Source: Candidatus Gastranaerophilales bacterium (GTDB lineage Bacteria > Cyanobacteriota > Vampirovibrionia > Gastranaerophilales > Gastranaerophilaceae). From it: 64,000 bases of DNA. Made by a program: the position numbers and the translations under genes. The stretch covers positions 62,001-126,000 of the forward strand of contig CALVAN010000004.1 in the NCBI GenBank assembly GCA_944325555.1, given 5' to 3'. Below, piece by piece: positions 184 to 51,070 of the stretch (the first letter of the stretch is position 1; each line of letters opens with the position of its first letter). A model generated the notes under the pieces. The model made no database searches. It saw only the letters and a program-made list of their open reading frames with translations, and was not told the origin of the DNA.

Positions 184-1488
184 ATGACCGAAGAAAATAA
201 ACAGAATAAAACAGATGTTATAGTTGTTGGTGCAGGACCTGCAGGTGTCAGTGCCGCTGTTACTGTTGCACGCAGCGGTAAAAAAGTTGTACTGGTGGAA
301 AGAGGAAATTATGCCGGTGCAAAAAATATGTACGGTGGTGTTATATATTCTCACGCTGCTGCTGAAATTTTCCCAAATTACAAAGAAGCCCCTATAGAAA
401 GATTTGTTTCAAAACACAGTTACGTGCTTTTGTCGGAACAAGATTCCACCACAATATCTTATAAAAACCCGTCGCATAACGAAAATGCTTTTGTTATAAC
501 ACGTGCAAACTGGGATAAGTGGTGTGTTGAACAGGCAATAAATGAGGGTGTTTATTATGCACCCAACACTCTTGTTAAAGAGTTAATTGTAAAAGACGGC
601 AAAGTTATCGGCATAAGAACCGACGTGGAAGAATATTATGCGGAGGTGGTGATTATTGCGGACGGCGTAAACTCATTGCTCGCAAGACAGCTTGGTCTTA
701 GAAAAGACATGAGGCCTAAAGATGTCTTTCTCGGTGTAAAAGAGGTTATTAAGCTTCCGTCAGAAGTTATTGAGCAGCGCTTCGGTTTGACAAACCATGC
801 GGGTTGCGCAATGGAGCTTGTCGGGGAGCCTTTTAACAATATGTTTGCAATGGGAATTATTTACACAAACAAGGATTCCGTTGCCGTAGGGCTTGGCGTC
901 GGGCTGGATGATTTAAAGAATCATAAGGTTAAACCGTATGAACTTTTGGAAAAGATGAAAACCCACCCGTTTGTTGCTGATATTATAGAGGGCGGAGAGC
1001 TTTTGGAATATTCCGCTCACCTGATTCCGGAAGGCGGCTATAACAGGCTGCCTCAATTATACACTGACGGTGCAATGGTTACGGGTGATGCTGCAATGCT
1101 TGTTAACAACGTTCATTTTGAAGGAACGAATTTTGCTATGATAAGCGGAAAATATGCCGGTGAAACGGCTCTTGAGGCTTTTGAAAAAGCTGATTTTTCT
1201 AAAAATCAGCTGTGCCTGTATAAGAAAAAACTGGACAACAGTTTTATTTTAAAAGATTTGAAAACTTACAAGGATGTTGTAAAAACAATTACCGGAAGGT
1301 CAAATTCCATTGGTTATTATTCTAAAAAAGTTAATGAATTTTTTGGAATATTTACAACCGCCGACGGAGTTGAGAAAAAAGGTAAATTCCAGAAATTTAC
1401 AAAACACTTTTTTACAAAACGCAGTCTTGCGGAACTTTTTAAAGACGGTTTCGCCGGTATAAAAGTTATGTTTGATATATTGAAATAA
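184..1488 (+). CDS. fixC: FixC-like flavoprotein-quinone oxidoreductase
   Basis: This 434-residue flavoprotein passes electrons from an electron transfer flavoprotein (FixAB type) towards quinone. An N-terminal FAD-binding Rossmann motif (VVVGAGPAGVSAA, about residues 14-26) and a second nucleotide contact (GAMVTGDAAMLVNN, about residue 295) are visible. The length fits FixC (about 430). FixX follows after 16 bp, so the two are one operon. fixA and fixB are not in the window, and a terminator stands just upstream, so they must be elsewhere. In FixABCX systems NADH oxidation is bifurcated to quinone and ferredoxin; whether that happens here depends on FixAB being present. A general geranylgeranyl-reductase-type FAD enzyme is the main alternative, made unlikely by the adjacent FixX. 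Confidence 0.85.
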   Translation: MTEENKQNKTDVIVVGAGPAGVSAAVTVARSGKKVVLVERGNYAGAKNMYGGVIYSHAAAEIFPNYKEAPIERFVSKHSYVLLSEQDSTTISYKNPSHNENAFVITRANWDKWCVEQAINEGVYYAPNTLVKELIVKDGKVIGIRTDVEEYYAEVVIIADGVNSLLARQLGLRKDMRPKDVFLGVKEVIKLPSEVIEQRFGLTNHAGCAMELVGEPFNNMFAMGIIYTNKDSVAVGLGVGLDDLKNHKVKPYELLEKMKTHPFVADIIEGGELLEYSAHLIPEGGYNRLPQLYTDGAMVTGDAAMLVNNVHFEGTNFAMISGKYAGETALEAFEKADFSKNQLCLYKKKLDNSFILKDLKTYKDVVKTITGRSNSIGYYSKKVNEFFGIFTTADGVEKKGKFQKFTKHFFTKRSLAELFKDGFAGIKVMFDILK

Positions 1489-1504
1489 TGCTCGGATAAC
1501 AGAT

Positions 1505-1792
1505 ATGAACGAAAAAATTCCTGAAAAAATTGAAGACAAACTCTTTAGCGTCAAGTATAGAACTGACTCGCAGTGCCATTTGAAGCCTGACCAATCAAAA
1601 TGCTTGCAATGTCTTGAAAAAACCTGTACAATAGTATGTCCGGCGAATGTTTACTGCTATAATGAAACAGAAAAAAAACTCACCGTAAGTTACGAAAAAT
1701 GTTTGGAATGCGGTGCCTGCAGAGTAGCCTGTAAACATATTGATTGGACTTACCCTAAAAGCGGCAAGGGCGTTCAATTTAAAAAATCATAA
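1505..1792 (+). CDS. fixX: FixX-like ferredoxin
   Basis: A 95-residue iron-sulfur protein, the partner of FixC. It has two cysteine groups, CLQCLEKTCTIVCP and CLECGACRVACKH, enough for at least one 4Fe-4S cluster and typical of the FixX family in size (about 95-100). In the family it docks on FixC and relays electrons to quinone. It starts 16 bp after fixC, so translation and transcription are probably coupled. The start ATG at 1505 gives the expected length. Confidence 0.85.
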   Translation: MNEKIPEKIEDKLFSVKYRTDSQCHLKPDQSKCLQCLEKTCTIVCPANVYCYNETEKKLTVSYEKCLECGACRVACKHIDWTYPKSGKGVQFKKS

Positions 1793-1820
1793 GTTTTCAA
1801 AAAATTAAAAGGAGAGAGGT

Positions 1821-2213
1821 ATGAAAGAAGAATACAGCCACAACTACCGCAGATGGTACGACAAAGACCCGATTTTATCAAAATCCATGAGTACTCTGGA
1901 AAAATCAGACGACGAAACGCAGATTAAAGTTGCGTTGAATGTTATTAAAATTATTATCGAACACAACATTGCGGAACATACATACACGGGTGTTGAAGAT
2001 ATGATGACCGCAGTAGAAGACGGTCTTGTGGAAAAGGGCAAAAGCAGATGGTATGATCTTGATACAACCGTAAGAACCGCTATTAATATGCTTGAGAACA
2101 GCCCTCTTCCCGTGCAAAAAGCCGTTGCCAAAGAAATGGCAAAGATGGTTGTGGACAAAATTAAAGAAGATAAAGACGAACAAGACGACGACGAAACAGA
2201 AGAAAACGAATAA
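1821..2213 (+). CDS. Small acidic hypothetical protein
   Basis: A 130-residue protein I do not recognise. It opens with charged aromatic residues (NYRRWYDKDP), has a helical middle (ALNVIKIIIEHNI) and ends in a very acidic tail (KEDKDEQDDDETEENE). It has no signal peptide or membrane segment, so it is probably cytoplasmic. A strong ribosome site (AAAGGAGAGAGG) precedes the ATG. It lies 28 bp after fixX and 26 bp before recJ in the same direction, so it may share their transcript. Confidence 0.75.
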   Translation: MKEEYSHNYRRWYDKDPILSKSMSTLEKSDDETQIKVALNVIKIIIEHNIAEHTYTGVEDMMTAVEDGLVEKGKSRWYDLDTTVRTAINMLENSPLPVQKAVAKEMAKMVVDKIKEDKDEQDDDETEENE

Positions 2214-2239
2214 TTCGTTTTTGATACTTATATTACAAA

Positions 2240-4609
2240 ATGGAAAAAATCTGGAAAACAAAAGAACTTGTTGAACCCTCAGAGGATTTGATTCAGGCTG
2301 CGGGGAACAAACTCCTTGCGCAGCTGCTTGTACAAAGGGGCATGGATACCGTAAAAAAAATACGGGATTTTTTGCAGCCCTCGCAGATGAAAATAACCTC
2401 TCCTTTTGCTTTTACGGATATGGAAAAATCCGTAGACAGGATTTTTGATGCCATAGAAAAGCAAGAAAAAATTATTGTTTACGGCGACTTTGACGCAGAT
2501 GGCGTTACATCATCTTCTCTCCTTTACAAAACTCTGCGTCATTTAAACGCAAATGTTGAATTTTATATTCCCAACAGAGAAAACGAAAACCACGGGCTAA
2601 ACTCAAAAGCTCTTGTAAAACTGATAGCAAAACATAAAGCAAAGTTGATAATCACGGTTGATTGCGGGGTCAGCGATGTTGAACAGGTAAATTTTGCCAA
2701 CGGGTTTAAGGTTGACGTAATCATTACCGACCACCACGAGGCTCCCGAAATTTTGCCCGAGGCTTTTGCCATTATAAACCCCAAAGCATTTAATTCTTTG
2801 AAAAAAGATTTGACCGTGGAAGAAATCGAGGCTTTGAATCAGCTTGCGGGTGTGGGTGTTGCGTTTAAATTGGCGTGTGCTTTGCTTGAAAAAAAAGAAG
2901 ATTATGACTTTGCAAACGAGCTTTTGCCGCTGGTGGCTGTCGGTACGATTGCGGATGTTGTGCCCTTGCTTTATGAAAACCGCTCATTTGTGGAAGCCGG
3001 CTTAAAGCTTATAGAGCAGGGGGCGCATTACGGGTTGTCACAACTTTTGAGTGTCGGCGGGTATGATGTACAAAACGGTTTGACTTCGGAAAATATTGCT
3101 TTTGGCGTTGCCCCCAGAATCAATGCCGCAGGACGTCTTGATACGGTAGACAATGCCGTAAAACTCTTGATTTCCGATAACAAGGCAGAAATAGACCTTT
3201 GTGCGCAGGAGCTTGATAATTTAAACCGCATTCGTCAGGATTTGTGCGACAACATGTATGAAGAAGCGCTGGAAATGCTTCAAAATGAACCGCCGCAGGA
3301 AAGCATTATACTTTACAAAGAGGGCTGGCATATCGGCATAATCGGTATTGTCGCTTCAAAACTTGTTGAAAAATTCTATAAGCCCGTATTTTTGATGACA
3401 AAAGACGAAAACACAGGTTTTATCAGATGTTCTTCAAGAAGCATCCCGGAAATTCATATCCGTGACGCTATTGCACAAAACGAAAACCTTCTGGAATATT
3501 TCGGCGGACACTCACAGGCTGCGGGGCTTGTGTTTGACCCTAAAAAATCCTCTTTTGAAACGGTTAAACATGCATTAAACGAAGCCGTAAAACTTCAGCT
3601 TGACGGAAGAAAGCTCATTCCTTCAATCGAAGCGGATTTGGAACTTGATTCTTCGTTTATTTCGGTAGATTTGATTGATACTCTCTCAAAGCTTGAACCT
3701 TTTGGGGAAGGCAACAAGGCACCTTTGTTTATTACAAGAAATCTTATTTTAAACAATGTCCGTACTATGGGGCAGAAAAATAATCACCTCAAAATATTTT
3801 GCGAAAATGAACAGAACAAACCTTTTGAGTGTGTGTATTGGAATCACTGTGAGTTAAACATTCCGCAGGGCAAAACTTTTGATGTTGTTTTTTATCCGAA
3901 GCTTAATGTCTTTAACGGGATTACGACGATTCAGCTTGATGTTCAGGATATAAAATCAGAGTTTGAGATAAAACAAACAAAAACTGATTTTAAATTTTAT
4001 GACCACCGTAAAAAAACAGATATTTTCAGGCAAATTTGCGACTACCTGAACACTACAAAAGTGCCGACAGAGGTGTTTGCGCAAAACAAAAGCGTATGTG
4101 AAAATTTGAAACACTATAACGAGATATTTTCTCTTGTTCGCAGCAGAAAAAATCTCTCGCCCTGCTCTCAGGTTATGTTTTTTGATTATCCCGCAAGCGA
4201 ATCCGTTATGAGTGAAATTATCAAAAAAACCGGTGCAAAGGTTTTGCATTTTATGAATTACAACAACCAAAATATCGAGCCTCAGGAGTTAATAAAAAAT
4301 ATCTCCGGCATGTTGAAGTATGTTTCAAATGCCAAAAACGGAGAGGTTGTTCTTTCTGATATAGCTGATTTTCTCGGGATTTCCGACGAGGTTACGGAAC
4401 TTTGTTTTGATATGCTCGAGTCACTCGGTATGTTCGAAATAGAGAGCAAAAACGTTAATACATACAAGATAGTATTTTTACATCCCGTTGAGTATTCCAA
4501 AGTACAGGAGAGTGAAATGTTTGAGGAGTTGCAAAACGAGCTGCAAAAGATTTATGACTATCGCAGCAAACTTTTGACAATGCCGCTTGAAGAGCTTGTG
4601 ATTGCTTGA
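2240..4609 (+). CDS. recJ: Single-strand DNA exonuclease RecJ
   Basis: RecJ degrades single-stranded DNA 5' to 3' in recombination and mismatch repair. The DHH phosphoesterase core is clear: motif DFDADG at 83-88 and TDHHEAP with DHH at 164-166, then the DHHA1 motif FGGHSQAAGL near residue 420. At 789 residues it is the long form like Bacillus RecJ, not the 577-residue E. coli form. The extra C-terminus (about 560-789) ends in what looks like a winged-helix segment. The start ATG has no good Shine-Dalgarno site. Confidence 0.93.
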   Translation: MEKIWKTKELVEPSEDLIQAAGNKLLAQLLVQRGMDTVKKIRDFLQPSQMKITSPFAFTDMEKSVDRIFDAIEKQEKIIVYGDFDADGVTSSSLLYKTLRHLNANVEFYIPNRENENHGLNSKALVKLIAKHKAKLIITVDCGVSDVEQVNFANGFKVDVIITDHHEAPEILPEAFAIINPKAFNSLKKDLTVEEIEALNQLAGVGVAFKLACALLEKKEDYDFANELLPLVAVGTIADVVPLLYENRSFVEAGLKLIEQGAHYGLSQLLSVGGYDVQNGLTSENIAFGVAPRINAAGRLDTVDNAVKLLISDNKAEIDLCAQELDNLNRIRQDLCDNMYEEALEMLQNEPPQESIILYKEGWHIGIIGIVASKLVEKFYKPVFLMTKDENTGFIRCSSRSIPEIHIRDAIAQNENLLEYFGGHSQAAGLVFDPKKSSFETVKHALNEAVKLQLDGRKLIPSIEADLELDSSFISVDLIDTLSKLEPFGEGNKAPLFITRNLILNNVRTMGQKNNHLKIFCENEQNKPFECVYWNHCELNIPQGKTFDVVFYPKLNVFNGITTIQLDVQDIKSEFEIKQTKTDFKFYDHRKKTDIFRQICDYLNTTKVPTEVFAQNKSVCENLKHYNEIFSLVRSRKNLSPCSQVMFFDYPASESVMSEIIKKTGAKVLHFMNYNNQNIEPQELIKNISGMLKYVSNAKNGEVVLSDIADFLGISDEVTELCFDMLESLGMFEIESKNVNTYKIVFLHPVEYSKVQESEMFEELQNELQKIYDYRSKLLTMPLEELVIA

Positions 4610-4640: not shown

Positions 4641-6140
4641 CTAACAATATTTTTTAACGGTTTTATCCAGCAAAGCAACAAAGGTGTCTTCGTAATGCTT
4701 GCAGTTTTCCTGTGATTTTGCTTCGAACCTGAGTGTAAAAACGGGTTCCGTGTTGCTTTGTCTAATCATTGCGAATCCGTCTTCAAGGATGATTCTCATA
4801 CCGTCCAGCGTGATAATATCTTTTATTTTTGTACCGAACAAATCGGGATTTTCTGCAACCGCTTTTTGCATGTCTTCAAGAACAACCTTTTTAAAATCGT
4901 TGGGGCAGCGGAATCTTACCTCTTTTGAAGTGCAAACGCCGTCAAAAGGTTTTAAAAGGTCTTCTATTTTAAATTCCGGATTTTGGAGTTTTTGTTTTGC
5001 AATAATTTCGATAATTCTGCAGCCCGCATAAATAGCATCGTCAAAACCGTAATATCTGTCTTTAAAGAAGGTATGACCTGACATTTCACCTGCAAGTATT
5101 GCATTTGTTTCCTTCATTTTTGATTTGATATAACCGTGACCTGTTTTGGTCATAATGGCTTTGCCGCCCATATTATCGATTGTGTCATACAACACCTGAG
5201 AGCATTTAACCTCGGATACAACAACAGGGTGTTCTCCTCTGCGAGCAAGGGGTTCAATGATGTCTTGAGCATAAATTAAAAGCAGCTTGTCACCTGTTAA
5301 GGCATTGCCTTTTGAATCAATAACACCGATTCTGTCGGAATCTCCGTCAAAAGCAATACCTACATCTGCTTTTTCTTCAACAACTTTCTTTTTGAGGGTT
5401 TCCAGCGTTTTTTCGTCGCTCGGATTTGGGTGATGATTGGGGAAAGTTCCGTCGGGTTCGCTGAAGAGTTCCACAACCTCACAGCCTAAATCTCTGTACA
5501 GTTGCGGGGCAACAACACCTGCCGTGGCGTTGCCGCAGTCTGTTACAACTTTTATACCTCTGCCGATTGAGGCAAATTTGTTAACAATGTTTTCGCTGTA
5601 TTGCTCTATTATGTCGTATTTTCTTACAATGCCGTGTCTGTTAGAGGTGTCACGTATGTTAACCTCTTCCATGGCAAAAGCTTTAACTTCTTTAATTTGT
5701 TCTTCAGTTAAAGAGGCTTTATTAAATGTCATTTTTAATCCGTTATATTCACTCGGGTTGTGGCTGGCTGTTACAATCAAGGCGCCGTTAACTTTGCCGA
5801 CGCTGATAACGGTTTCGGGAATTTGGGCAAACTCTGAATAATACCCAAGCGGTGTCGGTACCATACCAATATTGAGTACACAGGCACCTGTTGAGGTTAC
5901 ACCTTTTATCAAAGCATTTGTAAGGGATTCCGAATGTGTCCTTGCATCTTGCGCAACACTTACCCAGATATCTTTTGCGGTAATTTGTTTGTCTTCAGGC
6001 AGATGTTTGTTTAAATTTTCTACGACAAATCTTACATAACCTCTGCCGGCAAAGTAGAACAGTTCTTCCGTTACATCTTCACCGTAAATACCTCTTATAT
6101 CATTTTTCCCAAATGCTCTAAAATCCAGTGTGTTTGTCAT
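4641..6140 (-). CDS. Phosphomannomutase/phosphoglucomutase
   Basis: An alpha-D-phosphohexomutase that interconverts hexose 1- and 6-phosphates for envelope sugar synthesis. It shows the four family motifs: the phosphoserine loop TASHNP (Ser about residue 126), the metal loop DGDSDRIG (about 260), the sugar loop GEMSGH (about 345) and a C-terminal phosphate loop (RQSNTEP). The frame can be extended to a TTG at 6158, but I chose the ATG at 6140 (499 residues) because CGAGG sits 6 nt before it. It converges on recJ with a 31-bp gap. Substrate preference (mannose or glucose) cannot be read from the motifs. Confidence 0.92.
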   Translation of the reverse strand: MTNTLDFRAFGKNDIRGIYGEDVTEELFYFAGRGYVRFVVENLNKHLPEDKQITAKDIWVSVAQDARTHSESLTNALIKGVTSTGACVLNIGMVPTPLGYYSEFAQIPETVISVGKVNGALIVTASHNPSEYNGLKMTFNKASLTEEQIKEVKAFAMEEVNIRDTSNRHGIVRKYDIIEQYSENIVNKFASIGRGIKVVTDCGNATAGVVAPQLYRDLGCEVVELFSEPDGTFPNHHPNPSDEKTLETLKKKVVEEKADVGIAFDGDSDRIGVIDSKGNALTGDKLLLIYAQDIIEPLARRGEHPVVVSEVKCSQVLYDTIDNMGGKAIMTKTGHGYIKSKMKETNAILAGEMSGHTFFKDRYYGFDDAIYAGCRIIEIIAKQKLQNPEFKIEDLLKPFDGVCTSKEVRFRCPNDFKKVVLEDMQKAVAENPDLFGTKIKDIITLDGMRIILEDGFAMIRQSNTEPVFTLRFEAKSQENCKHYEDTFVALLDKTVKKYC

Positions 6141-6234
6141 AATAGCCTCGTATTTCAATTTTTTTATATTATCTCACAAAAAGCTTTAAAGGTAAAATTT
6201 GCAATCTTTGCAGGAGCAAGTTAAAAGGTAATTT

Positions 6235-6243
6235 TGATATAAT
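6235..6243 (+). promoter_or_regulatory. Extended -10 promoter of sugar permease
   Basis: TGATATAAT is a perfect extended -10 (TG-N-TATAAT, hexamer 6238-6243). It ends 7 nt before the GTG at 6251, which would make the mRNA leaderless. Confidence 0.55.
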
Positions 6244-6250
6244 TGTGTTT

Positions 6251-7126
6251 GTGAAAAAATCAGTAAAAAATTTGTTAACGGAAAATTTTAAGATAAATAT
6301 GTTTGTTTTGCCTGCTTTGGCCGGCACATTGATATTTATTGTTATTCCCGTATTTTTTTCTTTTTATTTAAGTTTTTGCAAATGGGATTTGCTTTCTGAC
6401 ATTCAATTTGTGGGACTTAAAAATTATGCAACGCTTTTTTCTTCACCTGCTTTCGGGATAATTATAAAAAATACTATTGTTTTTGCACTGTCCACGGCTG
6501 TTATTGCAATAATCATTCCTTTGATTCTTGCAGCTGTGCTTAATAATAAAATAATGGGAACTGAATTTTTTAAAACGGCGTATTTTTTGCCGTTCATTAC
6601 GCCAATGATAGTTATAGCTATTGCTTGGGAGTGGATTTTTGACCCGAATAACGGGTTATTAAATTATGTTTTAAGAGCACATATTAACTGGCTGTATGAC
6701 ACAAAAACCGCAATGATTGCACTTATTATAGTTTCTGCCTGGAAACTTATAGGCTACAATATGGTAATTTTTCTTTCCGGTTTTTCTTCAATAAATTCGA
6801 ATATCTATGAAGCGTCAAAAATTGACGGTGCAAATGAAATACAAACTTTTTTTAAAATAACTCTGCCGCTTTTAAGCCCGACAATATTTTTTGTACTTGT
6901 AATAACGACTATTTCGTCATTTCAAGTTTTTGATTTAATTTATCTTATGACGCAGGGCGGGCCTATGGATTCGACAAATGTGCTTGTGTACTGGATATAC
7001 AAAAACGCTTTTGAATATTTTAATATAGGTGAAGCTTCGGCAGGAGCATATATTCTGTTTTTAATAATCCTGATTTTAACTGTTATTCAATGGACAACTC
7101 GTAAAAAATGGGTTTTTAACGAATAA
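6251..7126 (+). CDS. Sugar ABC transporter permease (MalF/UgpA type)
   Basis: A 291-residue inner membrane protein with about six transmembrane helices. The EAA loop that contacts the ABC ATPase is visible (EASKIDGANEIQTFFKITLP, about 190-210). The family imports sugars or glycerol phosphate. It stands alone: no second permease, binding protein or ATPase is nearby, so the partners must be encoded elsewhere. I prefer the GTG at 6251, 7 nt after a perfect -10, over the GTG at 6245; an ATG at 6299 is a further option. Its 3' end overlaps gmk by 11 bp on the opposite strand. Confidence 0.85.
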   Translation: MKKSVKNLLTENFKINMFVLPALAGTLIFIVIPVFFSFYLSFCKWDLLSDIQFVGLKNYATLFSSPAFGIIIKNTIVFALSTAVIAIIIPLILAAVLNNKIMGTEFFKTAYFLPFITPMIVIAIAWEWIFDPNNGLLNYVLRAHINWLYDTKTAMIALIIVSAWKLIGYNMVIFLSGFSSINSNIYEASKIDGANEIQTFFKITLPLLSPTIFFVLVITTISSFQVFDLIYLMTQGGPMDSTNVLVYWIYKNAFEYFNIGEASAGAYILFLIILILTVIQWTTRKKWVFNE

Positions 7127-7682
7127 CGGATTTAATAACTCTTTCCAGTTCGTCCAAAGCTCTGTCTAAATCATCGTTAACAATTGTGTAATCGTAATTT
7201 TTGGAGCATTCAATTTCTCTTTTTACTTCGTGCAAACGTCCCTGAATTGTTTCTTCATCCTCTGTGTTTCTGCCTCTCAGACGGTGTTCAAGCTCTTCTA
7301 TTGAAGGGGGCAGGATAAATATTAATACGGAATCGGGAAGTTTCTTCTTTATTTGCAGGGCGCCTTTTGTTTCTATTTCAAGAATCAGGTTTTTGCCTTT
7401 ATCAAGGTTTCTTTCAACCCACGCTTGTCTTGTGCCGTAATAGTTTCCGTTGAACTCTGCCCATTCCAAAAAGTCGCCGTTTTCAACTTCTTTTAAAAAT
7501 TCTTCTTTAGTAACAAAAAAATAGTTAACACCGTCGGCTTCTCCGGGGCGGGGGCTTCTTGTCGTTGCGGAAATAGAAACCTCAAGCTGCGGATTTTTTT
7601 CAAGCAGCTTTTTTAAAAGTGTCCCTTTTCCAACACCCGATGAACCCGATATTACAAATAATTTGCCTTTTTTAGTTTCCAT
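7116..7682 (-). CDS. gmk: Guanylate kinase
   Basis: Phosphorylates GMP to GDP with ATP in purine salvage and synthesis. It has the P-loop GSSGVGKGT at residues 13-21, the GMP-binding stretch TTRSPRPGE near 41-49 and the lid region RLRGRNTEDEE. At 188 residues it is slightly short for the family (about 205), ending soon after the last helix. It overlaps the convergent permease gene by 11 bp. It has its own near-consensus promoter at 7706-7734. Confidence 0.95.
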   Translation of the reverse strand: METKKGKLFVISGSSGVGKGTLLKKLLEKNPQLEVSISATTRSPRPGEADGVNYFFVTKEEFLKEVENGDFLEWAEFNGNYYGTRQAWVERNLDKGKNLILEIETKGALQIKKKLPDSVLIFILPPSIEELEHRLRGRNTEDEETIQGRLHEVKREIECSKNYDYTIVNDDLDRALDELERVIKSVIR

Positions 7683-7705
7683 TTTTGTTTACCGTATTGT
7701 TTCAA

Positions 7706-7734
7706 ATTATACATAAATATTTTTTACATAGCAA
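7706..7734 (-). promoter_or_regulatory. Promoter of gmk
   Basis: On the minus strand TTGCTA (7729-7734), a 17-bp spacer and a perfect TATAAT (7706-7711). It predicts a leader of about 17 nt before the gmk ATG. Confidence 0.7.
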
Positions 7735-7764
7735 AAAAAATTATTCCTGTTTTTTGTAGCGGGT

Positions 7765-9168
7765 ATGATAACCCCGATTTTAAAAAGTTATATATATTCA
7801 TACACAAATATTGAACCTTCGAAACGGATTCAAAATCCGACTCAGGCAGATAATACCGTGCTTGATTTAAACAAACTGCCCTCTTACAAATATCAAATAT
7901 CTTTTGGCTGCAGTGAAGAAGAAAAAATAAAAAAATATATAAAAAATAGAAAAAGAAGTCTTAACCGGCAGCATATCTCTTATAAAAATATAAATATGTA
8001 TAATATTAACAGGCTTGAGGGAATACAAGAAGGTATTGATGTTTTTAAAGGGCTTTCCATGCGGCAGATAAAATATCTTGCCCAGCACTCTACAGAATTT
8101 GTGCTTCAAAGAGGATGCCATAATATGTGCGCTCACTGCTATGCAAGTGCTATGCCGCCTTCTTATCAAAAAGCGCCCGATAAAATAAATAAAATAGATT
8201 TTGAAGACTTCGAAAAACTTTATTACGGTTTTCAAGAGTTAAATAAAAGGCTCGGTTTCAGTATTTTCAAAAATTCCAAAAACGAATATAACACATTATT
8301 TCACGATGCGGATTCTTCAACGATATTTTTGCAGGATAAAAACGGCAAAGTTTATGATTACCTTGATCTGGCAAAAATGGTAAACGAACTTACCGAAAAG
8401 GAAATTGTATTTGATACTGCCGGCTGGAATATACAAGATAAAAAAACACAGGAAAGAATGGAAAAACTGGTTGAAAAAGCCTTAAATTCCAATGAATATG
8501 ATTTTGTGGCATTTAATCTTTCTGCAAATCCTTTCCATGCGTTGAATCATCGTGCCTTGCAACATTTAAAGAACGGAAATTATGCACAATACAAAAAAAT
8601 TCGTGATATTTATACAACAAGAATGGCAAATGTATTGTTTACTTTTACTCCTTTAATAGAAAAAGAGAGAGTTCGTTTAATTGTCAGGGCGCTGCCTAAT
8701 GAAACAAAAAACGCAAACGGTTATCGTGAAGATGATTTGTTTATGTTGTACAGTGAAATATTTAATAAACTTTTCAAACTTTATAAACAGGACTATGAAA
8801 GCGGTGCGCACAAAGTTATAAAGGATAAAGATCAGATAGAAAAAAATATTGATTATCTTAATGAAGAATTAAAAAATATCGAGCAGGCATTGGGCATAAA
8901 CGGCAGGATGGCAGATCTTGTTACCGATAAAAAAATTTTTGCATACAAAAATACAAAAGCACGCACCTATAAAGATCCTCAAAAAGCGGTAAAAGGTTTT
9001 AAAGATGGTATCATTGACGTTAACGGCAAACTGTATATAACAAACTGGTATGAAAACTATCCAACCGATATACAGCTTAATTACAAGAATAAAGACAAAA
9101 AAACGGCTGACATAAGTCCATATCTTAATGAAAAGATGATTACTTCAGATATGCTGGATACTTTGTAA
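7765..9168 (+). CDS. Radical SAM protein of unknown role
   Basis: A 467-residue protein whose only clear motif is the radical SAM cluster site C118-x3-C122-x2-C125 (RGCHNMCAHCYA), which binds a 4Fe-4S cluster and S-adenosylmethionine. Downstream, alternating strands and helices fit a partial TIM barrel (EIVFDTAGW, DFVAFNLSAN, RVRLIVRALP). There is no obvious second cluster in the C-terminus. The first 110 residues are unusual and hold YQISFG at 43-48, a motif repeated in another small protein of this window. The gene is monocistronic, divergent from gmk, and has no clear Shine-Dalgarno site. Substrate and product are unknown. Confidence 0.7.
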   Translation: MITPILKSYIYSYTNIEPSKRIQNPTQADNTVLDLNKLPSYKYQISFGCSEEEKIKKYIKNRKRSLNRQHISYKNINMYNINRLEGIQEGIDVFKGLSMRQIKYLAQHSTEFVLQRGCHNMCAHCYASAMPPSYQKAPDKINKIDFEDFEKLYYGFQELNKRLGFSIFKNSKNEYNTLFHDADSSTIFLQDKNGKVYDYLDLAKMVNELTEKEIVFDTAGWNIQDKKTQERMEKLVEKALNSNEYDFVAFNLSANPFHALNHRALQHLKNGNYAQYKKIRDIYTTRMANVLFTFTPLIEKERVRLIVRALPNETKNANGYREDDLFMLYSEIFNKLFKLYKQDYESGAHKVIKDKDQIEKNIDYLNEELKNIEQALGINGRMADLVTDKKIFAYKNTKARTYKDPQKAVKGFKDGIIDVNGKLYITNWYENYPTDIQLNYKNKDKKTADISPYLNEKMITSDMLDTL

Positions 9169-9259
9169 CGAAATTGTAATAAAACGGTTAATTTTGTCAA
9201 AAATTAAATTGCAGATTACTTTACATGGGCAGAAGTGTAAGAAATAGGAGATTTTTATT

Positions 9260-9916
9260 ATGTCAGTAGGTTCGGTAAATTCCAACGTATCAGTCGGACA
9301 ACAACAGCCAGTCAAAAAAAACAATGCAAAACGCACTGCAGCATATATAGGTGCAGGTGTCGGCACGGCTGCGGCTATTACCGGTGCAGTTGTGTATAGA
9401 AAAAATATTGCCGGTGTTTTTAAAACATTAAAAGATATGTTTACACCGTTAAAAACAAAATTGGTTTCTAATGTTTCCGATTTAGGTTCAACTGTCGGGG
9501 ATAAAGTCCAAAAGGCTGCCAAAGAGGTAAAAACCAAAGTAGGCGAAGGCGTTGATACTTTAAAAGAAAAAACGGAACCTCTTAAGGAAAAAATCCAAAA
9601 TGTAGCGGATGATGTTAAAGATAAAGTTGATGACGGAGTTGACGCATTAAAAGACAAAGCCAAACAAGTAAAAGAAGAAGTAAAAGAAAAAGTTGCAAAC
9701 TCCGAAACCGCACAAAATATTAAAAACGAAACGGAAGGCTTTTTCAAAAAAACAGGCGAATTCTTTAAAAAAGGTTTTACAACAACCTGGAACTTTACAA
9801 AACAGGCTTTTAACTGGGTAAAAGATAAAGTTGTCGACTTTTTTAAAGAAATTAAAACCTTTCTTTCAAATATGAAAAAAGAGGCAGCTGAACAGGTTGC
9901 ACAAGGCACAAAATAA
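9260..9916 (+). CDS. Membrane-anchored amphipathic repeat protein
   Basis: A 218-residue hypothetical protein. After a polar N-terminus, residues about 27-46 form one transmembrane helix (AYIGAGVGTAAAITGAVVY). Residues about 60-180 are a run of near-repeats with alternating lysine and aspartate/glutamate (VKDKVDDGVDALKDKAKQVK), resembling LEA or apolipoprotein amphipathic helices, or an elongated coiled coil. The end has further amphipathic segments with tryptophans. GGAG lies 10 nt before the ATG. A strong terminator follows, so it is a single-gene unit. Function is unknown; membrane association by the repeats is inference. Confidence 0.75.
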   Translation: MSVGSVNSNVSVGQQQPVKKNNAKRTAAYIGAGVGTAAAITGAVVYRKNIAGVFKTLKDMFTPLKTKLVSNVSDLGSTVGDKVQKAAKEVKTKVGEGVDTLKEKTEPLKEKIQNVADDVKDKVDDGVDALKDKAKQVKEEVKEKVANSETAQNIKNETEGFFKKTGEFFKKGFTTTWNFTKQAFNWVKDKVVDFFKEIKTFLSNMKKEAAEQVAQGTK

Positions 9917-9947
9917 ATATTGACATAATAAAATAATATAAACAAAT

Positions 9948-9977
9948 AACAGCAGGTTTTAAACAAAATCTGCTGTT
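9948..9977 (+). terminator. Intrinsic terminator before bioB
   Basis: A 13-bp stem (9948-9960 with 9965-9977, one G-T pair) and a 4-nt loop. It ends only 17 nt before the bioB ATG, so bioB needs a promoter overlapping or following it. Confidence 0.75.
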
Positions 9978-9982
9978 TATTA

Positions 9983-9988
9983 TATTAT
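9983..9988 (+). promoter_or_regulatory. Possible bioB -10 hexamer
   Basis: TATTAT lies 6 nt before the bioB ATG and no Shine-Dalgarno site is present, as at other predicted leaderless genes here. There is no convincing -35. A perfect TTGACA at 9920-9925 has no well-spaced -10. Confidence 0.35.
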
Positions 9989-9994
9989 ATAGTT

Positions 9995-10903
9995 ATGCTT
10001 GATAAAGAGGAATTGATAAGATTATATAATCTGGATTTGCAGGAGCTGTTGAACATATCCCAAATGTATGTAAAAAACGAAGTGGAGTTTTGTTCTCTTA
10101 TAAATGCAAGGAATGGTAAATGTTCTCAAAACTGCAAATACTGTGCACAGAGCTCTCATTACAATACAGAAATAGATTCTTTTCCGCTGGTTGACATTCA
10201 AGAGGTAACAAAGGCGGCAGAAGATGCTCTGTCACACGGTGCCTCAAGATTTGCAATAGTAACTTCAGGAAAAACTCCCGATGAAAGCGATTTTGACAAA
10301 ATGCTTGAGATGATCGGGGAAATTAATAAAATAGAAGGACTAAAAAGCTGTGCTTCTATAGGTATATTGAATGAAGAACAGGCAAAAAAACTTGCACAGG
10401 CTGGTTTAAAACGTTTCCATCACAATATCAACACCTCAAGAAGCTATTATCCTCAAGTTTGCACAACACATTCCTTTGAAGAGAGGATAAATACCTGCAA
10501 ACTTGTGAAAAAATACGGAATGGAGCTTTGCTGCGGTGTGATTCTAGGCATGGGCGAGACAGAAGAACAGCGTGTTGAAATGGCAATGATTCTTTCGGAA
10601 ATTCAACCCGATTCAATTCCGATAAATATTCTCATGCCGATAGCACATACACCTTTTGAAAGTTATATTGATAAAATTGGTGAAGAAGATGTGCTGCGCA
10701 CCATGGCTGTTATAAAAATTGCTAACCCAAAATCTGTTGTCAGGTTATGCGGCGGCAGAATACGACTGAGTAAGAAAAATCAGGAAAAAGCTCTTATGAC
10801 CTCTGTTGACGGACTTATGGTGGGGAATTATCTGACAACAATAGGGGCTGACCCAAAACAAGATATTGAAATGGTGCAAAATTTAGGAAAGAAGATTATC
10901 TGA
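9995..10903 (+). CDS. bioB: Biotin synthase
   Basis: Inserts sulfur into dethiobiotin to form biotin, the last step of the pathway. The radical SAM cysteines are C43, C47 and C50 (CSQNCKYCAQSS), followed by family motifs HHNINTSRSYY and GMGETEEQR. The length of 302 residues is within the family range, slightly short. The stop overlaps the ruvA start (TGATG), so the two genes are translationally coupled even though their functions are unrelated. No other bio genes are in the window. Confidence 0.93.
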   Translation: MLDKEELIRLYNLDLQELLNISQMYVKNEVEFCSLINARNGKCSQNCKYCAQSSHYNTEIDSFPLVDIQEVTKAAEDALSHGASRFAIVTSGKTPDESDFDKMLEMIGEINKIEGLKSCASIGILNEEQAKKLAQAGLKRFHHNINTSRSYYPQVCTTHSFEERINTCKLVKKYGMELCCGVILGMGETEEQRVEMAMILSEIQPDSIPINILMPIAHTPFESYIDKIGEEDVLRTMAVIKIANPKSVVRLCGGRIRLSKKNQEKALMTSVDGLMVGNYLTTIGADPKQDIEMVQNLGKKII

Positions 10904-38532: not shown

Positions 38533-39900
38533 TTACACCTGTTCTTTTATTGTTAATATATGTGTCGGGAGAGTTTTGGCTCTCAGTTTTTCGCTGAGAC
38601 AGACGCCTGTCGCCCATAAGACTTCATTACCTTTGCATAAAAGTATGATATCATCTCTTTTAAATTTTTCTATGCCTTTGTTTATAAACAGCTTTTTGAG
38701 CTTCATTGTTCCTTCCATTCCGAAAGGCTGAACGATATCTCCGTGTGTGCGTGTGCGCAGTGTTAATCCGTCAAAACCGTTTAAATATACATAAGCTTTT
38801 GGCTCATTTGCTTTAGGAAATTCGGGCGGGTTGTGTTCTTTGTATTCTTCAATATGAAAAATAGTGTCGTGAAATTTATATGTGCCGCAGCCTGTTATTT
38901 TGACTTCTTCCGTAATTTTTTCGGGTTCTAAATCCTGAATTGTACAAATTTTTTCTTTAGAAGCAAACAACCACAGGTCTTTTGTTAAAGAAAGAGTTTT
39001 GCCCGATTTGTATTTTGCACTTTTGTTTATAAAGTCATAAATTTCTTCCACCTTTTTGGAATCGTAATCCAGATTTTGTTCTATGAGAAAGTCCAGTATA
39101 AATTTGTTTTGTACATCTTTTGAAAGTTCAATAAATTTTTGTGTAATAAAATATCCGTCTTTGACAATATCTTTTTTTATTTTGGACAGGTATTCTTTGA
39201 CAATATTTTGTTCGGAAATGGCAATGCGTGAAAGATTCAAAATAACATCATCTATTTTTGGGTTGATTGTCTTAAGCTCCGAGATTATCTGGTGGCGTAT
39301 AAAATTGCGGGCATATTTTGTGTCAAAATTGCTGGAGTCATTGTTTGGTACAAGTTTGTTAATTGTACAGTATTTGACGATATCTTTTCTGGAAAAATTC
39401 ATCAAAGGTCTGTAAATTTTGCACTCATCAAGGGCAGAGGTTTCTAATATTCCGCACAAACCTTTTACTCCGGTGCCTTTTGACAGTCTGTAGAGGATAG
39501 TTTCGGTATTATCCGATTTTGTGTGAGCCAAAAATATTCCGTCTGCGTGGAATTTTTTATAACATTTCTTGAAGAATTCCTGACGTTTTTCCCTTGCAAC
39601 AGTCTCTGTTTTTGGCAGACCTTCGGGTAAAGTTTCGCAATAGAGTTCAATATTATTTTCTTTACAGTATTTTTGACAGTTTTCCTGTTCAATTTCTGCT
39701 TCTTTCCCCCGCCAGTTGTGGTTCAGATGCAGTGCTATCAGTTTAAAACCTGTTTTTTGTGAAATTCTTTGCAGCATGTCCAGCATGCACATGGAATCAT
39801 ACCCGCCTGAAAATCCGACCACAAAGGTCTTTTCTTGTGATAACAGATTGTATTTTTTTAAAAAACTTTTAACCTTACTAATCATTTCTGCAAACTTCAA
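38533..39900 (-). CDS. tilS: tRNA(Ile)-lysidine synthase
   Basis: Modifies the wobble cytidine of a tRNA-Ile to lysidine, changing its codon from AUG to AUA. The ATP pyrophosphatase loop SGGYDS is at residues 31-36, followed by LHLNHNWRG and the C-terminal TilS domain (GTMKLKKLFINKGI). The length of 455 is normal. Its start overlaps the end of the LdpA-like gene by 23 bp, and hpt follows after 4 bp. Confidence 0.94.
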   Translation of the reverse strand: MKFAEMISKVKSFLKKYNLLSQEKTFVVGFSGGYDSMCMLDMLQRISQKTGFKLIALHLNHNWRGKEAEIEQENCQKYCKENNIELYCETLPEGLPKTETVAREKRQEFFKKCYKKFHADGIFLAHTKSDNTETILYRLSKGTGVKGLCGILETSALDECKIYRPLMNFSRKDIVKYCTINKLVPNNDSSNFDTKYARNFIRHQIISELKTINPKIDDVILNLSRIAISEQNIVKEYLSKIKKDIVKDGYFITQKFIELSKDVQNKFILDFLIEQNLDYDSKKVEEIYDFINKSAKYKSGKTLSLTKDLWLFASKEKICTIQDLEPEKITEEVKITGCGTYKFHDTIFHIEEYKEHNPPEFPKANEPKAYVYLNGFDGLTLRTRTHGDIVQPFGMEGTMKLKKLFINKGIEKFKRDDIILLCKGNEVLWATGVCLSEKLRAKTLPTHILTIKEQV

Positions 39901-40798
39901 TCAGTCTTTGTGCCTGTGCTACCGCATCCGTCAAATTCTTATCCTTAACAATTTTTCTGGCATAAGAGCCGATACTGATTCCATTATATCTAAGAGAACA
40001 CATTTTTGCTAACTCTGATGTTTTTTCATTTGTTCCGCCCGACATAAATATGTATGTACCGTAAGGCTGTACAAGGTGTGCCATGGCAACAGCCTGCAGG
40101 GTGGAGTTAAAGGTGTTGTCACCGCCTGACATAGGAACGCCGTCAGCCTGAATAATAAAATTTGTGTCGCCTTTCCACTTTGTGACTTTGTTTATGAGTT
40201 TTTTTACTCTTTCGTTGCTATAGAATTTTCTGTCCAAACAAAGGCTCAAAGCGCCTTTGAAATTTTCTATAACATATTTTATTTCTTTGTCGGGGATTTT
40301 TTTTGTGGAAAGGTGGATTTCAATGCAATCGAGTTTGTATTTTTTAGCAATTTTGACTATTCTTTCCACATCATATTCACATTCGGTAAAGGAAATTGCC
40401 TTGCAGTCATCACATTTTTGGCAGCCGATGCAATTTTCTTGTATTACTTTATAACTGTCTTTATCGGGAACAATTGCATTTTGCGGACATTTTTTTGCGC
40501 ATTTGCCGCAATTTTTGCATTTGTCTTTGTTTATTAGACATTTTTGGATATGAGTATCGCCTGAAAGCCCCATGCTGATTGAATAATAAAAATCTTCGGG
40601 ATTTTTTCCGGATTTTTTTACCCCTCTCAAGACAGCTTCCACTGCTTCTTTAGATGGGTTTATGTCGAACATGTCCGCACCTGCTATGGCGTATATTGTG
40701 ACTAAATCCTCAATCTCTTCAAAATGTTTGTTCCCTAGCCCCAGCACAAGTTTGAAGATTTTTTTGGTATTTAATGTATCAAGGAGTTTTTGCTTCAT
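39878..40798 (-). CDS. LdpA-like iron-sulfur protein
   Basis: A 306-residue protein. The first 90 residues are a barrel-like segment (FKLVLGLGNKHFEEIEDLV, then AIAGADMFDINPSKEAV). Two 4Fe-4S ferredoxin motifs follow (CKNCGKCAKKCP and CIGCQKCDDC at about 93-135), then a third region (KYKLDCIEIHLSTKKIP and a long C-terminus). This order resembles LdpA, the redox-sensing input protein of the cyanobacterial circadian clock. LdpA identity is from memory of the family. It is first in an operon with tilS and hpt and has TATAAT 6 nt before the ATG. Confidence 0.6.
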   Translation of the reverse strand: MKQKLLDTLNTKKIFKLVLGLGNKHFEEIEDLVTIYAIAGADMFDINPSKEAVEAVLRGVKKSGKNPEDFYYSISMGLSGDTHIQKCLINKDKCKNCGKCAKKCPQNAIVPDKDSYKVIQENCIGCQKCDDCKAISFTECEYDVERIVKIAKKYKLDCIEIHLSTKKIPDKEIKYVIENFKGALSLCLDRKFYSNERVKKLINKVTKWKGDTNFIIQADGVPMSGGDNTFNSTLQAVAMAHLVQPYGTYIFMSGGTNEKTSELAKMCSLRYNGISIGSYARKIVKDKNLTDAVAQAQRLIEVCRND

Positions 40799-49459: not shown

Positions 49460-51070
49460 TTAAAGATTTTTTAAATCTTTTTTAGGATTTGATGATATCT
49501 GTCTTACGTTAAATTTTGATTTTAAAAACTCAAGCATATTCGGGGTTAAAACGTTAGCCGTACACACGGGCAGATAGATATTTTTTATTCCGAGATTGCG
49601 CAGATTAAACAAATGCGACATTGTATGCAGATTGCAGGTGGTAATAAACACACTCACCGGAAATTTTTCAAAATCCACACGGTTTTTAATGTGCGCAAGT
49701 ATCTTGTAAATCAAAGAAGAATTGAAGAAGGAATCAAAATACAAAATATTATCCTTTTTGGCGGTCATAACCGTGCTTATAACAAAATAATCATCGTTTA
49801 AATGTTGTTCCATTTCGCTGAAATATTCGCTGTGCATTGCTGCGTGGTTTAAAAGTCCTACTATTAGCAGATGTTTTATCTCTTTGTTTTCAATCTTTTT
49901 AATAAGCTCATCTACATTTTGCATGACTACATTTTCATCGTAGCCTACTTTAACGGTGGTGATTCTGTGGTTGTCTTTGTAACCTTCACTTTCCTGAGTA
50001 ATTTGAATAAGCTTTGAAAAGTCATTGTTTTCAATACGGCTCATTCCTTTGCCGCTGATAATATTGGTGGTAAATATTCTGCCACGGTAAAGTCTGTCAA
50101 GAAGATACTGAAAATTTCTTATAACAAGAACAGACCCTTTAAAAGAGGTAAAATCATACTGCACATTATCAAGTGATATCTGATAGTGTCCTTTCAAATT
50201 AGGGAAGTTTTCAAATTTAGGATAAGCATGTGCAACAATGAGCCCGTCATGGGTGTAAACATTTATATCTGTATCTTTCAAAGCTTCAAGAAGATTTTCC
50301 AAATCCTTAAGGTTTTGACCTGATACAAGTATGGACTTGCCTTTATTAACACCGATTTGTACATCGTTTAAAGAAATTTTGCCGTAATATTCTTCTTTGA
50401 ACTGATGTAATTTTTGATGAATTTGAAAATTTATCTTTGCAAAATCATGAATTTTTCTAAGGAGCTTAGACTCTTGCATGGTTGAAAAATTCAGGCTGTT
50501 AAACAGTTTTAATATTGCGTCTTCTTCCGGCACGTAGTCATCGGTGTAAGATTTTAGCTCCACAAGCCTTATACTTGCACTTTTAATCAGATTCAAAATT
50601 ATCTCGTAGATATTTTTTACATCCGAGTTTAAAATTTTGTTTCTTAAAACGGCCTGCTGTTCGCCCTGTTGGACGATAGCAGACATATTAAACTTCTTAA
50701 AATCTATATTGGATTTTAAAATCTGACAGTCTATATTTTCTTTGTCACAGATTGCAATATAAGATTCTTTTACGGATTCTTTTTCGTTGTGGATTTTATA
50801 AATCAAATCCTCAAACTCCTTGCGGTTGAATTCATACCCGATTAACACCACAGACAGGTAGTTTATAATTTGATTTTTAAGTTTTTTATTCTCGTAGCCG
50901 AGTTCCTGCATTTTTATGTAATAGTAAGTAATCTGCTTTAGTTCATAAAGCAAAACCTCCATAAGCGAGTAAACAATAGGGTCTATGCTGCAAAACCCCT
51001 CTATTGCACAATCGTTGTATGACATATTATCACCGGTCCAAAAGTTTTTATCGGAATATTTGTTAAACAT
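49460..51070 (-). CDS. Hybrid-cluster-protein homologue without metal ligands
   Basis: A 536-residue protein that follows Hcp (hydroxylamine/nitric oxide reductase) along its length. Matching segments include GKSILVSGQNLKDLENLL (244-261), INVYTHDGLIVAHAYP (269-284), GRIFTT (330-335) and LGIKNIYLPVCTANVLTPNML (493-513). Where Hcp has its hybrid-cluster ligands, other residues stand: Gln252 for His, Gly276 for Glu, Phe320, Leu406/407, Thr436 and about Phe448 for the four Cys, and about Asn480 for Glu. The N-terminal CxxC is also gone, though C21 and C27 remain. A segment of about 11 residues is missing near 438. The frame is intact, so it is a maintained non-enzymatic relative. Positions come from alignment by eye. 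Confidence 0.75.
   Translation of the reverse strand: MFNKYSDKNFWTGDNMSYNDCAIEGFCSIDPIVYSLMEVLLYELKQITYYYIKMQELGYENKKLKNQIINYLSVVLIGYEFNRKEFEDLIYKIHNEKESVKESYIAICDKENIDCQILKSNIDFKKFNMSAIVQQGEQQAVLRNKILNSDVKNIYEIILNLIKSASIRLVELKSYTDDYVPEEDAILKLFNSLNFSTMQESKLLRKIHDFAKINFQIHQKLHQFKEEYYGKISLNDVQIGVNKGKSILVSGQNLKDLENLLEALKDTDINVYTHDGLIVAHAYPKFENFPNLKGHYQISLDNVQYDFTSFKGSVLVIRNFQYLLDRLYRGRIFTTNIISGKGMSRIENNDFSKLIQITQESEGYKDNHRITTVKVGYDENVVMQNVDELIKKIENKEIKHLLIVGLLNHAAMHSEYFSEMEQHLNDDYFVISTVMTAKKDNILYFDSFFNSSLIYKILAHIKNRVDFEKFPVSVFITTCNLHTMSHLFNLRNLGIKNIYLPVCTANVLTPNMLEFLKSKFNVRQISSNPKKDLKNL

Follow-up and report, generated by a model that had tools for sequence, protein, structure and literature searches.

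Hybrid cluster proteins (Hcps) owe their name to an unusual Fe-S-O cluster, which is their defining feature. They belong to the prismane proteins (PF03063, TIGR01703) and include class I and class II enzymes such as those of D. vulgaris (1E2U) and E. coli (7DE4). In the same PF03063 superfamily, deviant CODHs have been described in which one or a few of the active-site ligands are altered (PMC9311411; PMC6344411). The protein described here goes further. It is encoded in a 64,000-nucleotide stretch of DNA (the window) from the 2.3 Mb genome of a Candidatus Gastranaerophilales bacterium, is homologous to Hcp over its full length, and has none of the seven residues that hold the hybrid cluster. 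We call it pseudo-Hcp.

The pseudo-Hcp gene is an uninterrupted reading frame of 536 codons (Table 1), in agreement with the initial annotation, and the assignment made there to full-length Hcp homologues was supported alike by Pfam, NCBIfam, phmmer and hhalign. The Pfam Prismane model (PF03063, Prismane/CODH) matched the protein with 117 bits (E 1e-33), and the NCBIfam Hcp models TIGR01703 and NF003658 with 223 and 227 bits (E about 1e-66), scores that fall short of the equivalog cut-offs of these models (361 and 367 bits). A phmmer search of the PDB returned Hcps exclusively, aligned end to end (best E 8e-36), and at E values up to 1 no CODH appeared among the hits. When hhalign compared the profiles of 18 clade members and of 12 canonical Hcps, 534 columns were aligned (probability 100, E 9e-79), and this alignment spanning the full length rules out chance similarity or misalignment. 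The predicted structure was only moderate (pLDDT 68), because the underlying alignment held 16 close sequences, and it was of low quality around several former ligand loops. In a Foldseek search with this model Hcps headed the list (E 8.6e-20, TM 0.61), and CODHs scored far below the Hcps. We rejected a phage or other mobile origin of the gene: PHROG gave no match, and the plasmid matches listed were Hcps at 23-26% identity. Scanning the gene for promoters and terminators gave no signal above that of shuffled sequences. Elsewhere in the window (39878-40798, minus strand) there is a gene for an LdpA-like protein (LdpA_C plus 4Fe-4S). It is related to a protein of the circadian input of photosynthetic cyanobacteria and is found here in a non-photosynthetic relative.

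The initial annotation, made by eye, had stated that the His, the two Glu and the four Cys ligands of the hybrid cluster are all replaced. The alignment showed this for all seven, and the positions given were right to within about one residue; the residue opposite E. coli C433 is M435 and not, as first thought, T436. The equivalent of C458 falls near F448 in a loop that is shortened here, and ligand E492 has become N480. A search of the alignment for hybrid-cluster ligands conserved at shifted positions found none. In the N-terminal cluster the first two cysteines (E. coli C3 and C6) are gone, as had been noticed, and C21 and C27 remain; genera such as g41 and g32 have kept none of the four. 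The loss of the hybrid-cluster ligand set is common to 136/136 aligned sequences of this kind from the same bacterial family. As judged from the sequences and from what is presently known of the ligands, the Hcp chemistry known to take place at the hybrid cluster is excluded. It is thus correct to call the protein stripped of its metal ligands, but it would be wrong to call it stripped of functional cysteines, because the clade has three new conserved ones, C108, C479 and C503.

Table 1. Coordinates in the window of the pseudo-Hcp gene and of selected codons; fractions refer to clade members.
Feature	Coordinates	Strand	Remark
Ligand-less Hcp homologue (pseudo-Hcp), 536 aa	49460..51070	-	without same-strand gene directly upstream
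C21 codon (= E. coli Hcp C18, N-terminal cluster)	51008..51010	-	kept in 109/136
C27 codon (= E. coli Hcp C25, N-terminal cluster)	50990..50992	-	kept in 111/136
C108 codon, new, 129/136, absent in canonical Hcps	50747..50749	-	near helix end, N-terminal bundle
Q252 codon, replaces ligand His (E. coli H249, D. vulgaris H244)	50315..50317	-	alignment
G276 codon, replaces ligand Glu (E. coli E273, D. vulgaris E268)	50243..50245	-	alignment
F320 codon, replaces ligand Cys (E. coli C317)	50111..50113	-	alignment
L407 codon, replaces persulfide Cys (E. coli C405)	49850..49852	-	alignment
M435 codon, replaces ligand Cys (E. coli C433)	49766..49768	-	alignment
C479 codon, new, 132/136, adjoins lost ligand Glu site (E. 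coli E492 = N480)	49634..49636	-	
C503 codon, new, 131/136, canonical Hcps have Thr/Ser (E. coli T515)	49562..49564	-	

Hcp relatives matching the query were present in 272 of the 288 genomes, and in 39 of the 41 genera, of the Gastranaerophilales family to which the window belongs. In the window's own genus the ligand-less protein occurs in 22/23 genomes. A canonical short Hcp with all ligands, encoded by a separate gene, is found in 13/23 and is absent from the window genome. One member of the genus holds only fragments of the short canonical gene (G137:C4:142731-143080), and further fragments lie in other members of the family, at G116:C19:7637-8064, G239:C3:85863-86291 and G048:C6:4827-4988. 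This bacterial family may be losing the true Hcp by repeated decay and retaining the ligand-less one. For the three pseudo-Hcp pairs with unsaturated synonymous sites dN/dS was 0.047-0.061, which means purifying selection. Together with the retention across the family, this upholds the earlier opinion that the gene is maintained; and ligand loss, the Hcp at the top of the fold matches and selection jointly justify the term Hcp pseudoenzyme, for a protein in which the known hybrid cluster is impossible.

In a tree calculated with the ligand columns masked, a single branch (SH-aLRT 100) separated all ligand-less proteins of the family from the rest. The tree was built by a quick method, was midpoint-rooted and had long branches, thus the branching order inside the ligand-less clade is uncertain. 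Searches of the class and the phylum outside the order yielded matches at the level of canonical Hcps only, and the one odd match (L280 in G413) turned out to be canonical, with part of the gene masked. The ligand-less proteins are a Gastranaerophilales-specific clade. Its members include tandem copies that have diverged from one another, three in L090 (G011, 5620-10482), of which the middle one is without C21 and C27, and pairs in L089 (G015, 417-3685) and L200 (G051). A shorter subgroup of about 475-500 aa (L151-L156, genera g21, g3, g26 and g36) has a strongly diverged C-terminal part, yet C479 and C503 are mostly kept.

Partly stripped forms were seen in three genomes of the sister family f7. 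L140 retains four of the four N-terminal cysteines and three of the seven hybrid ligands (E273, C317, C405), while L144 and L147 each retain two of the four N-terminal cysteines and two of the seven hybrid ligands (E273, C317). Ordinary long Hcps occur in other families of the order (within L137-L150). Because midpoint rooting places the f7 forms beside the canonical Hcps, outside the family clade, they may represent either an intermediate stage of one ligand loss or a parallel loss. The canonical long Hcps of the order adjoin a gene for a dicluster ferredoxin-like protein and/or an Rrf2 regulator; in L137-L142 and L150 the ferredoxin-like gene (about 270 aa) lies upstream of the Hcp gene and is accompanied by the regulator. 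No reductase is known for class I-type Hcps (PMC10210160), and the dicluster ferredoxin-like protein is a possible candidate for their electron donor.

Of the new cysteines, C479 stands one residue ahead of the site at which the ligand Glu was lost, and C503 is in a conserved loop. Predicted strands 472-475 and 497-500 precede them and would belong to a single beta-alpha-beta unit in the C-terminal domain; since C479 and C503 would thus lie at strand ends of the same unit, they should, judging from secondary structure and alignment, be neighbours beside the former active site. Both were lost together in four sequences of three lineages (L086/L198, L105, L154), and a single loss within the pair was seen in one sequence (L217). 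On the tree these co-losses gave four independent contrasts, of which one was against the outgroup, and none pointed the opposite way; with so few independent events the association is not significant (sign test, p 0.125). C108 is missing in 7/136 sequences, and some members have lost C108 alone, which weakens its candidacy as an obligate third ligand. Besides the cysteines, Y50, D306 and R329 are near-invariant, and at the positions of the latter two canonical Hcps have different residues.

A second clue comes from the gene neighbourhood. Among 110 pseudo-Hcp genes, two of which came from g33 and g19, the genera nearest to the window's, and the others from further genera, 60 had a glutaredoxin-type gene directly upstream on the same strand, with a gap of -8 to 30 nt, whereas such a gene preceded none of 14 canonical or f7 Hcp genes. 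The linked product, a small protein with the thioredoxin fold and in most cases a CPYC motif, comes in two types. The first is closest to GST_N_3 and glutaredoxin (37 loci, often beside the ribosomal rpsL-rpsG genes); the second, at 23 loci in other parts of the genome, is a true glutaredoxin. In a glutaredoxin tree based on few columns the two types lie apart, with unlinked glutaredoxins between them, and this suggests that two separate glutaredoxin lineages were recruited. In three of the four true-glutaredoxin-type genomes checked (G032, G018, G077), the linked gene was the only glutaredoxin above the Pfam cut-off.

Outside genus g8, C479 and C503 were both present in 58/58 of the glutaredoxin-linked loci. 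In g8, C479, C503 and C108 are all lost, and the linked glutaredoxin reads CPYS, the second active-site cysteine being gone. It must be noted that four of the six CPYS glutaredoxins accompany an intact C479/C503 pair, thus a strict dithiol coupling is not universal. C21 and C27 were both lost in 21/23 members linked to a true glutaredoxin and kept in 37/37 linked to the GST_N_3/glutaredoxin type; this difference tracks phylogeny and is not an independent correlation. There is no linked glutaredoxin in the window's genus, in g33 or in g19, and the upstream neighbour in the window's genus is just a divergent M16 peptidase. The window genome has two unlinked glutaredoxin genes and a homologue of GCS2-type glutamate-cysteine ligase. 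In a genus close to the window's, an unlinked glutaredoxin with a CPHS active site (L272, G019:C46, 1432-1827) is of the same kind as those linked to pseudo-Hcp in other genera, and may be a relic of a broken operon.

We propose that the pseudo-Hcps are former metalloenzymes which now work as dithiol redox proteins serviced by glutaredoxin, a reading to which we give an even chance of being right. Such a protein would keep the fold of Hcp but lack both the hybrid Fe-S-O cluster and the four-cysteine cluster at the N-terminus. C479 and C503, placed where two parallel strands end next to the former active-site pocket, would form a redox-active dithiol/disulfide, perhaps assisted by C108, and glutaredoxin, with glutathione behind it, would reduce or deglutathionylate the pair. 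Pseudo-Hcp would then be a cysteine-based reductase or redox relay, whose substrate could possibly be an S-nitrosothiol or a peroxide, echoing the ancestor. For the window's genus, an unlinked gene would provide the glutaredoxin. The wider scenario, in which an Fe-S-O scaffold was turned into a metal-free, glutaredoxin-driven cysteine enzyme, its partner was swapped from ferredoxin to glutaredoxin and partly stripped forms survive, is put forward more tentatively and falls a little short of an even bet.

A cysteine pair could bind metal instead, and the main rival to the dithiol reading is a rebuilt metal site. A metal or Fe-S centre might have been reassembled from C21, C27, C108, C479 and C503, five near-conserved cysteines present in most members, and the linked glutaredoxin would then be an Fe-S carrier rather than a reductant. 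Some glutaredoxins do carry a [2Fe-2S] cluster. Dedicated Fe-S carrier glutaredoxins are, however, of the CGFS type, and most of the linked ones are of the CPYC dithiol type. The related CooS-V Ch, a CODH with altered ligands, still has a cluster (PMC9311411), which speaks for a rebuilt centre; but only C479 and C503 persist where C21 and C27 are absent from nearly all true-glutaredoxin-linked members and C108 from a few sequences, so that no four-cysteine set exists clade-wide and the case for a rebuilt site is weakened. A two- or three-cysteine metal site is still conceivable, and on the whole we regard a rebuilt centre as unlikely.

The initial annotation had considered a structural or sensor role. 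The fold might indeed have become a non-catalytic scaffold or sensor, binding a partner or ligand, with the cysteines as a regulatory redox switch or a structural disulfide. All known catalytic ligands are gone, and the near-invariant Y50, D306 and R329 suggest a constrained surface or pocket. However, about 60 loci with flanks showed no output domain that was fused to the protein or recurred next to it, and the partner that does recur is an oxidoreductase. The near-invariant new cysteines and the glutaredoxin linkage indicate thiol redox chemistry instead, and we consider a scaffold or sensor rather unlikely. That pseudo-Hcp is a functionless, decaying Hcp gene is very improbable: the clade diverges fast (most other genera have about 28-38% identity to the window protein) and about eight family matches carry one in-frame stop, but the low dN/dS and the presence of the gene in nearly all genomes of the family led us to reject this explanation, and it is also at odds with the new near-invariant residues and with the canonical Hcp being the one that is patchy and in places fragmentary.

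If the dithiol reading is true, pseudo-Hcp would represent a new enzyme or redox-relay family, present in nearly all members of a large gut-bacterial family. It is better conserved than the true Hcp within its own bacterial family, with the cluster discarded. Annotation by homology would label it 'hydroxylamine reductase', a name that is probably wrong for hundreds of genomes. The partly stripped relatives, the partner exchange and the new cysteines make up a testable series for the repurposing of a metalloenzyme scaffold, and the protein offers an entry to the redox physiology of gut Gastranaerophilales. The earlier impression that no such family had been described agrees with our searches: a literature survey of titles, abstracts and hit counts, with subscription papers outside its scope, gave neither a ligand-less Hcp family nor an Hcp-glutaredoxin pairing, and the family libraries contained no described ligand-less Hcp family.

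It is instructive to compare pseudo-Hcp with the known systems. With glutaredoxin targets and dithiol reductases it shares a conserved cysteine pair and, at about half of the loci covered but not in the window's genus, a glutaredoxin gene in an apparent operon. To our knowledge no glutaredoxin target has the Hcp fold. The short, class III-like canonical Hcps of the same bacterial family (L048-L060) are of the same superfamily and often occur in the same genomes; unlike pseudo-Hcp, they are about 510 aa long, have all ligands and show a patchy, partly fragmentary distribution. CooS-V Ch and the other deviant CODHs (PMC9311411; PMC6344411) also have non-canonical active-site ligands on a PF03063 background, but CooS-V Ch still binds a cluster, whereas pseudo-Hcp is without the entire ligand set. 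The closest relatives are the class I and class II Hcps, with which pseudo-Hcp shares homology over the full length, the fold, the long N-terminal helical part, conserved glycines of the backbone and, in the central domain, the Y-T-H motif. It differs from them in that the seven hybrid ligands are replaced, two (in some genera all four) of the N-terminal cysteines are lost, C108, C479 and C503 are gained, and the neighbour is a glutaredoxin instead of a ferredoxin-like protein or Hcr.
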